Assembly (NCBI GenBank): GCA_003242275.1
Contig: QGUX01000224.1
Coordinates: 1-5,705 of the forward strand
Source of the DNA: Pseudomonadota bacterium
GTDB lineage: Bacteria; Pseudomonadota; Gammaproteobacteria; Steroidobacterales; Steroidobacteraceae
Length of the DNA stretch: 5,705 nucleotides
Direction of reading: 5' to 3'
Notes under the pieces: generated by a model
Databases searched by the model: none
Told to the model about the DNA's origin: nothing
What the model saw: the letters and a program-made list of their open reading frames with translations, nothing else
Translations under genes and position numbers: made by a program
In this document: positions 2,362 through 5,705 of the stretch, piece by piece
How positions within the stretch are numbered: position 1 is the stretch's first letter
Layout: each line of letters begins with the position of its first letter

Positions 2362-3231
2362 TCAGGCCTCGGGCTTCACGAACTTCAGCGTGAAGCGGTC
2401 GGACTCGCCGATGGCCTGGTACTTGGCGCGGTCGGTGTCTCCCAGCGCGAAGCTGGGCGGCAGCGTCCACACGCCGCGCGGATGGTCCTTGGTGTCGCGC
2501 GGATTGTTGTTGATGTCCGAGCGCGCCTCGAGCCTGAAGCCGGCGGCCTCGACCTTGCGGATCAGCCACTCCTCGCCCACGTAGGCCTGGCCCGGCTGCG
2601 CCGGCTCGAATCCGGGATCCGCGTGGCGGTGCTCGACCACGCCGAACACGCCGCCGGGCCTGAGCGCACGGAACACGGCGGCGTAGACCTCCTCGTCCAT
2701 GTCGGCCCAGGTCCAGTTGTGCACGTTGCGGAACGACACGACCAGATCGGCGCTGCCCTCGGGCGCGATGTCCGTCTTGCCCTTGGCCAGCACCGAGCGC
2801 CGCACCTTCGAATACAGCTCGGGGTTGGCGCTGGTGAGCGCGTCGAAGCTCTCGTTGTAGCGCAGCTCCTCGGGGCTCGCGGTCTCCGGGTCCATGATGG
2901 CGGCATAGTAGGTGCCGCGCTCGCGCAGGTAGGGCGCGAGGATCTCGGTGTACCAGCCGCCGAAAGGCCACAGCTCCACCACCGTCATGTCGGGGCGGAT
3001 GCCGAAGAAGGTCAGCGTCTCGACCGGATGGCGATACACGTCGCGCGCCCGGTTGGCCTCGGAGCGGTGCGCGCCCGCCACCACCTCCGCCAGTCCCTCG
3101 CCGGGCGCGACCGCCTGCGCCGCGGACGCGGCATCGCCGCCCTGCTTCGAGCAGGCCGCCAGCGCCAGCAGGGCACCGGCGAACGCGGCCACGCACCGGG
3201 CAGACCGAAACTTCCCCACCTGTGGTTCCAT
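2362..3231 (-). CDS. Exported (predicted lipoprotein) SAM-methyltransferase-like protein, COG4798 type
   Basis: A complete 289-residue protein. The N-terminus is a lipoprotein signal: basic residues, hydrophobic [14 protein letters not shown], and lipobox LAAC ending at Cys27. A class I methyltransferase-like domain follows: [20 protein letters not shown] (66-85), motif I as [17 protein letters not shown] (84-100), an acidic residue after the second strand (AAIMDPE, 110-116), and [13 protein letters not shown] (161-173) in the motif IV region. Next is [15 protein letters not shown] (189-203), the usual post-motif helix and strand. The [10 protein letters not shown] and FRNVHNW signatures fit COG4798, predicted methyltransferases that are often secreted. 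Motif I reads WPFGGW where I would expect a glycine-richer PGGGW-like loop. The ATG at 3231 has GGAG seven bases upstream. Substrate, methyl donor outside the cytoplasm and true activity are unknown. Confidence 0.87.
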
Positions 3232-3291: not shown

Positions 3292-4029
3292 TCAATCGCC
3301 GGCAGGCGGTCCCCCGGCGAAGGTGAATTGGAAGCCCTCGCTGTGCAGCACCGAATCCCGCCGCCACGTGACGCGCGTGCGCGTGACCGCCAGGTGCCAG
3401 GACTGCTCGGACTGCGGCCCGGAGGTGAAGGCCTGCGGCGACAGCACCGCGGTGCACTGGCCGCCCTTCGGGTCACGCACCGAGCGGTAGCGGATCATCG
3501 CGATGCCTGCCTCGCGCGCCTGCGCGCCCAGGCGCTGGCAAGGCAAGTAGTCGTCGGGCGCCGTCCACAGTGCAGCCTGGGCATCGAATGGCGGCGCGCG
3601 CAGGTCGATGGTCCTGCCGGCCACGCGGCAGGCGAACAGCGTGTGCGGCACCGGCGCGAGGGACGCGAGCGCCGGGCTGTCCATCAGGAAGCGCCAGCGC
3701 CAGTACCCCAGCTCGGCGCAGGCCGTGCGCACCTCGGCCGCGCCGTAGAACACCCCGGGATCGGTGGGCGAGCGGAAGCGCGAGCCGCCCGGGAACCGCG
3801 GCGGATAACGGAACGGCGTGGCCAGCAGGTAGTGGAGCCTTGCGGCCGCCTGCGGCACCGGCGGCTTGCTGCCTTCGAGCAGCCGCTCCAGCTGCGCCTG
3901 CTCCTCCAGCGAATCGACCAGCCGCATGGTGGCGGCGCGGTGCTGCGCCTCCACCGCGCGCCACAGCCGGCCGGCCGCGCGGCGCGCCTCAGATGCGAGA
4001 GCGGCTGGCGTCCAGGTACTGGAGGACAC
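3292..4029 (-). CDS. RES domain toxin of a type II toxin-antitoxin system
   Basis: A complete 245-residue RES-family protein. Characterised RES toxins degrade cellular NAD+ and stop growth; the cognate Xre/DUF2384 antitoxin binds and blocks the active site. Visible family features: LHYLLATPFRYPPRF (65-79), GSRFRSPTDPGVFYGA (82-97), TACAELGYWRW (102-112) and AMIRYRSVRDPKGGQC (177-192). The R-E-S residues that name the family are probably Arg84 or Arg86, Glu106 and Ser183, with Tyr95 as another likely active-site residue. All are present, so the toxin looks intact. The start is a GTG at 4029 with GAGGG eight bases upstream, inside the antitoxin reading frame. The two genes overlap by 41 bases, which implies translational coupling and antitoxin made first. 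An internal ATG at 3927 would delete conserved N-terminal sequence (RLWRAVEAQH) and is unlikely. Toxin activity is inferred from the family. Confidence 0.9.
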   Translation of the reverse strand: MSSSTWTPAALASEARRAAGRLWRAVEAQHRAATMRLVDSLEEQAQLERLLEGSKPPVPQAAARLHYLLATPFRYPPRFPGGSRFRSPTDPGVFYGAAEVRTACAELGYWRWRFLMDSPALASLAPVPHTLFACRVAGRTIDLRAPPFDAQAALWTAPDDYLPCQRLGAQAREAGIAMIRYRSVRDPKGGQCTAVLSPQAFTSGPQSEQSWHLAVTRTRVTWRRDSVLHSEGFQFTFAGGPPAGD

Positions 4030-4369
4030 GCACCAGGCCCTCGGCGCCGCCGATCAGGTCCACCGGCCGCGCCGCCAGCGCCAGGTTTTCGCTGCGCAGC
4101 CAGGTGCGGGCGTCGGCGTCATTGCCGACCAGCGCCGCCAGCGAGCGGTACAGCCGCACGAACAGCAGCGCGAATTCCCATTCGCGCCGGCGCGAGGGTG
4201 CCAGCCGGTAGGTGCCCGCGAACAGCCGCGAGGCGGTGGCGCTGCTGACGCCCAGCACCTCGGCCACCGCGGCCTGGCTGAGCCCCAGCAGCCCGGCGGC
4301 CCGCACCACGGCCTTGCTCAGCGTGACGGAGGGATCGGGCTCCTGGCCCGGCAATGTGGATGCGCCCAT
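3989..4369 (-). CDS. Xre-type antitoxin with DUF2384 (MbcA/ParS/Xre toxin-binding) domain
   Basis: A complete 126-residue antitoxin paired with the RES toxin. Residues 16-52 form the DNA-binding helix-turn-helix (LGLSQAAVAEVLGVSSATAS at 28-47, then RLFAG). Residues 63-126 form the DUF2384 toxin-binding region, with LFVRLYRSLAALVG, the W90-LRSENLALA segment (the typical WL.s.N.aLgg motif) and the closing GLVRVLQYLDA helix. It should neutralise the RES toxin and repress its own promoter. I chose the ATG at 4369 because AAAGGAGG lies four bases upstream and a candidate promoter and palindrome lie just before it. An in-frame ATG at 4402 (11 more residues, MAVSFLQKGGR) also has a good site, AGGAG at seven bases. 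It would be usable only on transcripts begun further upstream, for example through the FlhD-like gene 54 bases away. Confidence 0.91.
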   Translation of the reverse strand: MGASTLPGQEPDPSVTLSKAVVRAAGLLGLSQAAVAEVLGVSSATASRLFAGTYRLAPSRRREWEFALLFVRLYRSLAALVGNDADARTWLRSENLALAARPVDLIGGAEGLVRVLQYLDASRSRI

Positions 4370-4376
4370 GCGGCCT

Positions 4377-4392
4377 CCTTTCTGAAGAAAGG
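4377..4392. repeat. 7-bp inverted repeat, candidate Xre operator
   Basis: The plus strand reads CCTTTCT-GA-AGAAAGG: two perfect 7-base arms with a 2-base spacer. It lies 8 bases before the antitoxin ATG at 4369, shares three bases with the candidate -10 box, and its left arm overlaps the AAAGGAGG ribosome site (4374-4381). The position is that of an autorepression operator for the helix-turn-helix antitoxin. As RNA it could also pair with the ribosome site. No experimental support is available. Confidence 0.6.
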
Positions 4393-4418
4393 ATACCGCC
4401 ATTTTGGTTCTCCTGCAA
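4390..4418 (-). promoter_or_regulatory. Candidate promoter of the Xre-RES operon
   Basis: On the minus strand TTGCAG (4413-4418) and TATCCT (4390-4395) are separated by exactly 17 bases, fitting a sigma-70 promoter. The -35 matches three of six consensus bases and the -10 four of six. Transcription would begin near 4383, leaving a leader of about 14 bases that carries only the ribosome site of the ATG at 4369. Short promoters of this quality occur by chance, so the support comes mainly from the location and the adjoining palindrome. Confidence 0.45.
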
Positions 4419-4456
4419 TTTCCGGGACGGACGCCCCACGCACCCCGGCGATGGAG

Positions 4457-5125
4457 TCAGCGGCGCGGACGCGGCGGGGGATGCCCAGCCGCGGTCAGCA
4501 CCCCCGCGGCCATGAGCTGCAGGCCCCTGAGGCTGACCTGCGTCAGCGCCGTGCTGGCCGGGTTGCGTGCCGCCAGCAGCAGGTGGCGCCACACCTGCGG
4601 CTGGCGCTCCCAGCGCGGCCGCACCCAGCCGGGACGGTGCTGCGCCAGCCAGTTGAGGTCGGCCAGGCGCAGCTGGCCGATGCGCTCGGCGCAGGCCGCC
4701 GACATGCCCAGCACCACGCGCGCGAGCTGCCGCTCGGCCCGGGCGAAGTGCCAGCCCAGCATCAGCACCTGGCGGATGAAATCATCCACGCCCTCGCCGA
4801 CGAACACCGGCTCGGCGAACTGCATGGGCAGGTCGTGCACCATGCGCTGCTCCAGGCAGCGCCAGCGCGGCAGGTCGTCGAAACCCGCGTCCACCAGCAG
4901 CCACGGCGAGGCCGACAGCCGCTGGCGCGCCGCCGCCGGCAGCTCGCGCCAGAACGCGCCCTGCCCCGCGAACAGCGCCGGGCACAGCCGCTCGTCCCTG
5001 GCGGCCATGTCGGCCAGCAGGTCGATGCACTGCAGGTTGATGTCCGCAACCGCATCGAGGGAGCCGTCGGCGAGCCAGTTGCCCGCCTGCCAGGGCCGTC
5101 CCGAGCCTGACACCTGAATTGCCAT
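4457..5125 (-). CDS. Uncharacterised protein with two FlhD-like segments; candidate transcriptional regulator
   Basis: A complete 222-residue protein, mostly helical, without signal or membrane segments. I do not recognise it as a named family. The C-terminal half can be placed without gaps on the E. coli FlhD core, recalled from memory: the region from Asp115 through LML (121-123) to LGMSAACAERIGQLRLADL (139-157), LA (160-161) and RW (171-172) matches FlhD LGI-NEE-MA, LTLPQM, LA and FRF in spacing. The N-terminal half begins DINL (28-31), as FlhD does, and ends LPAAARQRLSASPWLLVDAGFD (62-83), matching the equivalent FlhD region with about three residues lost. FlhD is about 116 residues and dimerises; this may be a fused tandem copy. 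The C-terminal tail (HPPPRPRR) is basic and proline-rich. The ATG at 5125 is preferred to a TTG at 5146; its ribosome site is weak. The divergent FlhC-like gene at 5286 supports a regulatory role. Confidence 0.72.
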   Translation of the reverse strand: MAIQVSGSGRPWQAGNWLADGSLDAVADINLQCIDLLADMAARDERLCPALFAGQGAFWRELPAAARQRLSASPWLLVDAGFDDLPRWRCLEQRMVHDLPMQFAEPVFVGEGVDDFIRQVLMLGWHFARAERQLARVVLGMSAACAERIGQLRLADLNWLAQHRPGWVRPRWERQPQVWRHLLLAARNPASTALTQVSLRGLQLMAAGVLTAAGHPPPRPRR

Positions 5126-5285
5126 CGTCCGCGTCCGCCTGCGCAAAAAAGCCTGAAAAATCCCTGTTGCGGCCAGATATTCCCGTGGAGGGGCTGTTGT
5201 TGGAATCCTTAAAATTGGGAAAAATTTCCCAATTTCATTTTTCCAGCATTTTAAGCACCAGAACCGGCAGGCAGGGAAGGCCCCG
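5126..5285. promoter_or_regulatory. Divergent intergenic region between FlhD-like and FlhC-like genes
   Basis: These 160 bases separate two divergent starts and must hold promoters for both genes. The centre (about 5200-5255) is AT-rich, in sharp contrast to the coding DNA, and holds nested inverted repeats. On the minus strand, nearer the FlhD-like gene, CAGG recurs three times at 11-13 base steps with T-runs between (5135-5164). A weak GGAAGG ribosome site precedes the plus-strand ATG at 5286. I could not assign a convincing -35/-10 pair in either direction. Confidence 0.6.
5208..5255. repeat. Nested inverted repeats in the divergent AT-rich island
   Basis: The inner palindrome has perfect 11-base arms, AAATTGGGAAA (5212-5222) and TTTCCCAATTT (5225-5235), around a 2-base AA spacer. 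An outer pair of 8-base arms, CTTAAAAT (5208-5215) and ATTTTAAG (5248-5255), partly shares bases with the inner left arm, so both structures cannot form fully at once. Since no gene ends here, a terminator makes little sense. A dimeric regulator's operator, possibly for the flanking FlhDC-like proteins, is the likeliest reading. Confidence 0.7.
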
Positions 5286-5705
5286 ATGAGAATCCACGAG
5301 TCCCGCTACAACCGCGACCGGCAGCGCTACGACCTCGCGCTGCGCTTCATCCAGCACGAGGCGCGCACGCGCACCATCCGCACGTGGACCGGGTTGACCG
5401 ACGACCGCATCAGGAAGCTCTACCGCGCCTGCGCCTTCGACGGCGGTCCGCCGCCGGTGCGCCACCGCGGCAAGTCGCCGCAGCAGACCGGCTACTTCGT
5501 ACGCACGCCCGAGATGCGGCAGGAGACCGCCGTGCTGGCCAGCGTGCTCTACCTGCTCGGCGTGGTGCCGCTCTCGCACGTGGCCGACGCCACCCGCCTG
5601 CTGCCCGGCATGCAACGCGGCGAGGCGCTGTGCGCCGCCTTCGAGACCTACCGCCGCCTCGTGCCCGACTCGCGCATCAGCTTCGAGCACGCCGTGTTCC
5701 TGGTG
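5286..5705 (+). CDS. FlhC-like transcriptional regulator (partial, C-terminus beyond the window)
   Basis: An ATG at 5286 opens a frame that runs through the right edge, giving 140 residues. Its layout follows E. coli FlhC (192 residues, recalled from memory): YDLALRFIQHEARTRTIRTW (15-34) corresponds to the IQLAMELITLGARLQMLE helix, TGLTDDRIRKLYR (35-47) to TQLSRGRLIKLYK, and GGPPPVRHRGKSP (53-65) to GSPPPKGMLPF. GYFVRTPEMRQETAVLASVL then matches the DWF..WEQNIHASMF helix, and GEALCAAFETYRRLVPDS matches GVDAVIKAYRLYLEQCP. FlhC is the DNA-contacting subunit of the FlhD4C2 activator of flagellar genes; relatives activate transfer genes in some conjugative elements (SetC/AcaC). The FlhC zinc site (four cysteines near 137-160) would lie just past the edge and cannot be checked. 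The match is by pattern, not search. Divergence from canonical FlhC suggests a paralogue rather than the flagellar master regulator. Confidence 0.7.
   Translation, partial: MRIHESRYNRDRQRYDLALRFIQHEARTRTIRTWTGLTDDRIRKLYRACAFDGGPPPVRHRGKSPQQTGYFVRTPEMRQETAVLASVLYLLGVVPLSHVADATRLLPGMQRGEALCAAFETYRRLVPDSRISFEHAVFLV

Follow-up and report, generated by a model that had tools for sequence, protein, structure and literature searches.

The gene on the minus strand at positions 4457..5125 of the analysed window, a 5,705-nucleotide stretch of DNA from a gammaproteobacterium of the family Steroidobacteraceae, encodes a protein of 222 amino acids, for which comparisons at the family level confirmed a predicted architecture of two FlhD-like modules in one chain. 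FlhD is known from flagella and is normally a pair of identical molecules; the E. coli protein comprises 116 residues and a single module. The tandem gene is divergent from a gene for an FlhC-like partner, and a probable operator lies between the two. We consider with good confidence that this locus is best explained by an FlhDC-type complex that regulates itself, is probably not flagellar and contains a covalent FlhD pair.

The tandem gene and its family

In the list of open reading frames, the tandem gene starts with an ATG at 5125 and ends with a stop codon at 4457–4459. Database searches retrieved 203 homologues of its product at E ≤ 1e-3, which marks it as a member of a real gene family, and two of the best 120 of these 203 relatives are Steroidobacteraceae bacteria (order Steroidobacterales) by source name. 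A precomputed PF05247 (FlhD) tag, derived from another Pfam version, is attached to 73 of the same best 120, and the FlhD label of the tandem family is hence already known and not new. Long antisense frames, which are common in high-GC DNA, lie over the gene at 3866–5110 and 4404–5117 (both plus strand).

Searches with the single sequence gave weak signals. Pfam FlhD matched the window protein only at residues 120–163, within the C-terminal half (E = 0.09; 13.5 bits, below the cut-off of 27), and no match was returned by an NCBIfam scan, by a PDB search or by a search of genome contigs with this sequence as the query. Single-sequence searches are too weak here and, taken alone, would argue against a tandem FlhD. 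A profile built from close relatives only (A1) reached no FlhD in the PDB, and its best match, a proteasome subunit (E = 0.15), was taken as chance. The same applies to an MNHE identity, for which 19 of the 46 family members scanned showed weak Pfam matches (best E = 0.0096); in that scan, Pfam FlhD matched 25 of the 46 (best E = 7e-4).

Two FlhD-like modules in one chain

The family was widened stepwise, from 45 close relatives to 8 genome loci, to 101 of 196 genomes of one order, and by a further 20 loci reached via the FlhC-like neighbour. The resulting alignment contained 211 sequences, with 210 and 208 rows for the two halves (107 and 111 after a 90% filter), and was matched against 133 aligned FlhD proteins; each hhalign value refers to one single comparison. 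The N-terminal module (residues 20–94; 4844..5068, minus strand) aligns with FlhD 4–81 at a probability of 92 and P = 6.2e-7 when the half is used alone, and at 87 and 3.8e-6 within the full profile. The corresponding values for the C-terminal module (residues 118–198; 4532..4774, minus strand), which aligns with FlhD 15–91, are 96 and 1.2e-9 for the half alone and 95 and 1.9e-8 within the full profile. Both modules are in register with FlhD and do not overlap. The proposal of the preliminary description that both halves are FlhD-like is thus upheld by the family, and its expectation of two significant, non-overlapping matches holds for profiles and fails for the single sequence. Judged in this way, both halves genuinely resemble FlhD, yet the window sequence alone cannot prove it.

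None of 300 shuffled N-half profiles (150 column and 150 block shuffles) reached the real score, and the best of the block shuffles still gave an hhalign probability of 75. It is very improbable that the C half alone is a true FlhD and that the N half is some other, unrelated helical domain with a compositional likeness to FlhD. In favour of this reading, the window protein by itself does show just the C half, and the two halves match each other poorly. However, an HMM of the N half ranked FlhD first among 133 FlhD proteins and 4615 other frames, and the only two non-FlhD frames in its top 25 represent one unremoved tandem gene of genome G337, entered via two loci. A 56-sequence profile searched against the PDB likewise found FlhD (8j56, 5hxg and 1g8e/2avu/4es4, three distinct sequences; E = 1.5e-9 to 6.5e-6), in every case through profile positions 18–105, which correspond to the N half; the next match, at 0.28, was at chance level. 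Against solved FlhD chains it is therefore the N half that matches, contrary to its earlier description as the weaker one. In the Pfam copy used here, the curated FlhD profile exceeded its gathering cut-off in 0 of the 196 genomes and produced 22 weak matches, spread over 21 genomes; of the 16 that were placed on tandem genes (13 by interpolation on profile rows and three on fetched loci, with six unplaced), 12 fall in the N half and four in the C half. Finally, the N half shares an invariant Asn with FlhD in register: Asn30 (codon 5036..5038, minus strand), the counterpart of FlhD Asn14, is Asn in 55 of 55 tandem and 12 of 12 FlhD representatives.

Among 321 genomes of the class, the N part of the tandem matched the single FlhDs of G115, G232 and G097, and the C part matched single FlhDs from six other genomes. 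When tested against the one-module-per-chain organization of FlhD (PF05247), the tandem protein differs by its two predicted modules, and one chain would form a covalent FlhD pseudo-dimer. A search of the open PMC library for tandem, fused or Steroidobacter FlhD, which covers part of the literature with subscription papers outside its scope, found no description of the tandem form, in agreement with the earlier statement that no such protein is known to have been described.

The FlhC-like partner

The gene at 5286..5705 (plus strand) encodes the first 140 residues of an FlhC-like protein and is cut by the window end. This cut copy matches FlhC with E = 0.16 in Pfam, below the cut-off, and with E = 0.044 in NCBIfam, and it is 69–78% identical to the FlhC-like genes in eight of eight loci. 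At the family level, the similarity to FlhC (PF05280) extends over the full length: a profile of 68 relatives aligned with FlhC over residues 11–183 of 187 (hhalign probability 99, P = 5e-18). The FlhC alignment used comprised 22 sequences, two of which (L148 and L149) were added by eye, and P was 6.5e-18 without both. The FlhC-like profile also matched the FlhC chains of the PDB (E = 1.6e-8), and one relative (L106) exceeds the Pfam FlhC cut-off (30.8 versus 27 bits).

The four zinc-site cysteines, in the pattern CxxC-x(10-30)-CxxC, are present in 67 of the 68 relatives, the sole exception being cut by the locus end; in the window copy, this site falls outside the window. According to excerpts of PMC3510510, DNA binding is lost in E. 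coli FlhC mutants of K42/K45, and of R37/R39/K42/K45 together. In the alignment, R39, K42 and K45 of FlhC have the basic counterparts R41, K44 and R47 in the FlhC-like query, and R37 is opposite an Asp; at least 90% of 33 sequences conserve R41 and K44, and position 47 is not conserved. As far as sequence can tell, the gene at 5286 encodes an FlhC-like partner with the conserved cysteines and most of the basic patch, and the presence of this adjacent gene, on which the preliminary description is silent, makes the FlhD identity of the tandem protein much firmer.

Gene arrangement

Every one of the 48 loci selected via the tandem gene contains the FlhC-like gene, with a partial match in L107. 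Forty of these loci come mostly from the higher-scoring profile rows, with one copy per genome except in G389 (two). In 46 of the 48, the genes lie head to head and their matched starts are no more than 423 bases apart; the exceptions are L105, where they are head to head and 2.9 kb apart, and L095, where they have the same direction. Conversely, when loci were selected via the FlhC-like gene, all from genomes with an FlhC-like match and without a match to the first tandem profile, 20 of 20 contained the tandem gene. A clear head-to-head order is seen in 19 of these, and in the remaining locus, L143, the longest open frames overlap. The divergent window pair thus differs from flhD and flhC of E. 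coli, which lie side by side and share one direction.

The window contains further genes, all on the minus strand. Directly downstream of the tandem gene lie an Xre/MbcA/ParS antitoxin gene (PF09722, PF20432; 3989–4402) and the gene of its RES-domain toxin partner (PF08808; 3292–4029). These are accompanied by a weak methyltransferase match (2362–3231) and by genes for a VOC/glyoxalase-type protein (1914–2336), a rhomboid protein (909–1901) and a DUF4159 protein (3–821). A DUF4159 gene is also found near the tandem gene in L007.

A palindrome in the intergenic region

The divergent intergenic region contains the palindrome AAATTGGGAAA-AA-TTTCCCAATTT (5212..5235), a probable operator whose 11-nt arms are 100% complementary. 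By a dyad pattern that was written after inspecting the sequences, related dyads occur in 18 of 47 intergenic regions, including that of the window, and the other 29 are without a palindrome; 0.8 would be expected after simple shuffling. The arms show compensating changes, for example from GGG/CCC to GGT/ACC. A strict 20-base form with at most two mismatches has exactly one match per genome in seven of eight genomes, and the reversed control has none; G002 lacks a strict match but contains a variant palindrome. The strict matches are located in the pair's own locus, six of the seven having been re-found by sequence and that of G008 placed by coordinates. No promoter-like hexamers were found at 5080–5300.

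Because the strict palindrome is confined to the intergenic region of the pair itself, we favour a local autoregulatory site, and other targets with weaker sites are possible. The palindrome also scores as a terminator-like stem and, in the 18 regions with such a site, begins 44–101 bases away from the FlhC-like match, both of which would suit a binding site for a different regulator or a hairpin in the leader RNA of the FlhC-like gene. We regard this as rather unlikely, since at the stringency used the confinement to the pair's intergenic region is of an autoregulatory kind.

Distribution and relation to flagella

The set of 196 genomes represents one order, by inference the Steroidobacterales, and the tandem profile matched 101 of them. 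Full-length tandems were found in four of 321 class genomes, and all four also belong to the order set. Within the sampled genomes, the tandem form accordingly seems restricted to the order. Two to four tandem-profile matches, some of them partial, occur in eight of its genomes, and G005 carries a second, diverged tandem copy (L009, 816–1460, minus strand) that is 32% identical and matches FlhD with E = 3.6e-5.

FlhC-like genes were found in 161 of the 196 genomes and FlhA in 94, with both in 89, and the 72 FlhC-like genomes without an FlhA match must be read with the incompleteness of metagenome-assembled genomes (MAGs) in mind. One of them, G359, consists almost entirely of one contig (at least 2.85 Mb of 2.9 Mb). 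A FleQ-type profile scored over the cut-off in 100 of the 196 genomes, a count taken from a full list of matching genomes, and also matches short frames of ~200–300 aa, so that it is not specific. In at least 27 genomes, a FleQ-type match lies 14–20 kb from flhA; these pairs were noticed on one contig, and their number is a minimum and gives no rate. None of ten neighbours scanned from four loci is flagellar: they comprise NudC-like, TamA, TamB and DUF4159 proteins, a weak GATase-like match, ABC transporter parts, an asparaginase, an FAD oxidase and one protein without a family. Because no genome of the order exceeds the Pfam FlhD cut-off, FlhC-like genes occur without an FlhA match, FleQ-type matches lie near flhA and the scanned neighbours are not flagellar, a non-flagellar or not only flagellar role of the pair is favoured.

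As FlhDC is the flagellar master elsewhere, the complex might instead be a flagellar regulator of the order, acting beside or above FleQ. Seven of the eight closest genomes have FlhA (with partial matches in G001 and G003), and of the 94 genomes with FlhA, 89 carry the FlhC-like gene as well, a co-occurrence above chance (odds ratio 7.4, Fisher p = 9e-6, 196 genomes) that uneven MAG completeness could likewise produce. The FlhC-like genomes without an FlhA match (72 of 161, including the nearly single-contig G359), the scanned neighbours and the FleQ-type matches near flhA all count against a flagellar regulator, which we consider distinctly unlikely.

In L007, NudC-like, TamA and TamB genes come after the FlhC-like gene, similar ORFs are seen in other close loci, and ORFs of the TamA cluster are present in 22 of the 48 tandem-chosen loci. 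This repeated NudC-like/TamA/TamB neighbourhood may hint at envelope assembly.

Divergence and origin of the two halves

The two halves retain different FlhD residues. The counterpart of Gly37, in the LG[IM] turn of FlhD, is Gly140 in the window protein (codon 4706..4708, minus strand); Gly is found at this position in 10 of 12 FlhD representatives and 51 of 55 C halves, versus 21 of 55 N halves. The counterpart of Arg68 has a similar distribution, being Arg in nine of 12 FlhDs and 52 of 55 C halves, versus 23 of 55 N halves. Around the Asn14 position in the C half (residues 115–118 of the window protein), the six commonest residues do not include Asn. The halves also differ in their FlhD affinities: the N-half HMM gave a mean of 21.7 bits for canonical FlhDs (79 sequences) versus 7.3 for divergent ones (54 sequences), and the C-half HMM gave 32.0 bits for divergent FlhDs versus 21.0 for canonical ones.

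A direct comparison of the N and C halves gave only a weak match (P = 0.015), which does not establish an internal duplication; the tandem may stem from a duplication or from the fusion of two FlhDs. In a FastTree phylogeny of 34 tandem and 21 FlhD representatives, N halves form one clade (0.935) and C halves another (0.999); based on 66 columns, this tree supports each half as a clade and does not settle the relation between them. Since the halves each form one clade, a single origin of the tandem before the order diversified is suggested.

We further propose, tentatively and with slightly more doubt than belief, an order-wide swap of the FlhD homodimer for a one-chain heterodimer of fixed order, which perhaps joined two already different FlhD lineages, with a canonical-like N half and a C half closer to divergent FlhD. 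The internal and peripheral positions of the FlhD4C2 ring would then be pinned to different modules, in a near-core, self-regulating system serving something other than flagella.

Comparison with known systems

The locus resembles FlhD4C2 in its FlhD-type modules, as recognized by profiles, and in its FlhC partner, which has the four cysteines and most of the basic patch linked to DNA binding. It differs in that the tandem protein has two diverged modules in one chain, compared with one in E. coli FlhD, and in that the tandem-type system is also found in genomes without an FlhA match.

The D subunits of SetCD, AcaCD and SgaCD presumably have one FlhD module each. Excerpts of PMC4542580 describe these systems as FlhDC-like activators of conjugative elements, distantly related to FlhDC and not flagellar, and report that its authors termed Pfam models unsuitable for finding SetCD/AcaCD. 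The tandem family is similar in being distantly related to FlhDC and poorly served by Pfam models. SetCD, AcaCD and SgaCD are found on mobile elements, whereas a search of plasmid and phage records with the tandem protein gave no match, and thus no sign of a mobile-element origin of the tandem.

Divergent single-module FlhDs of other Gammaproteobacteria (e.g. L024 and L027) resemble the C half, with the mean of 32 bits given above versus 7 for the N half. In contrast to the tandem, they have ~97 residues and are followed by an FlhC gene in the same direction. One gammaproteobacterial genome, G255 (L024, L036, L039, L040, L160 and L161), contains six genes for divergent FlhD-like proteins of one module, accompanied by FlhC-like genes.

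Discussion

We infer that a complex forms with the stoichiometry given below, that it binds DNA and regulates itself, and that its role differs from flagellar master control. The locus would encode an FlhDC-type transcription regulator whose FlhD part is one chain with two FlhD modules. Two tandem chains and two FlhC-like chains would assemble into (FlhD-FlhD)2C2 and so preserve the four FlhD folds and the pair of FlhC subunits found in FlhD4C2. DNA would be contacted by the FlhC-like subunit and the ring held together by the tandem, and the complex would control its own divergent promoter via the palindrome at 5212–5235, perhaps together with other targets. The N module retains the invariant Asn14 of FlhD, and the C module Gly37 and Arg68; as the modules are fused in a fixed order, each could specialize.

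The tandem family would represent an order-wide regulator that scores below the cut-off of the Pfam copy used here, and an FlhDC-type complex that may no longer serve flagella. According to excerpts of PMC3510510, helices 1 and 4 are buried in the two internal FlhDs of FlhD4C2 and exposed in the two peripheral ones. Identical FlhD subunits cannot adapt separately to these internal and peripheral places, whereas a fused pair can. Since the four FlhDs of FlhD4C2 are not equivalent and a fused pair is adaptable, the tandem would provide a natural experiment on position-specific FlhD residues.
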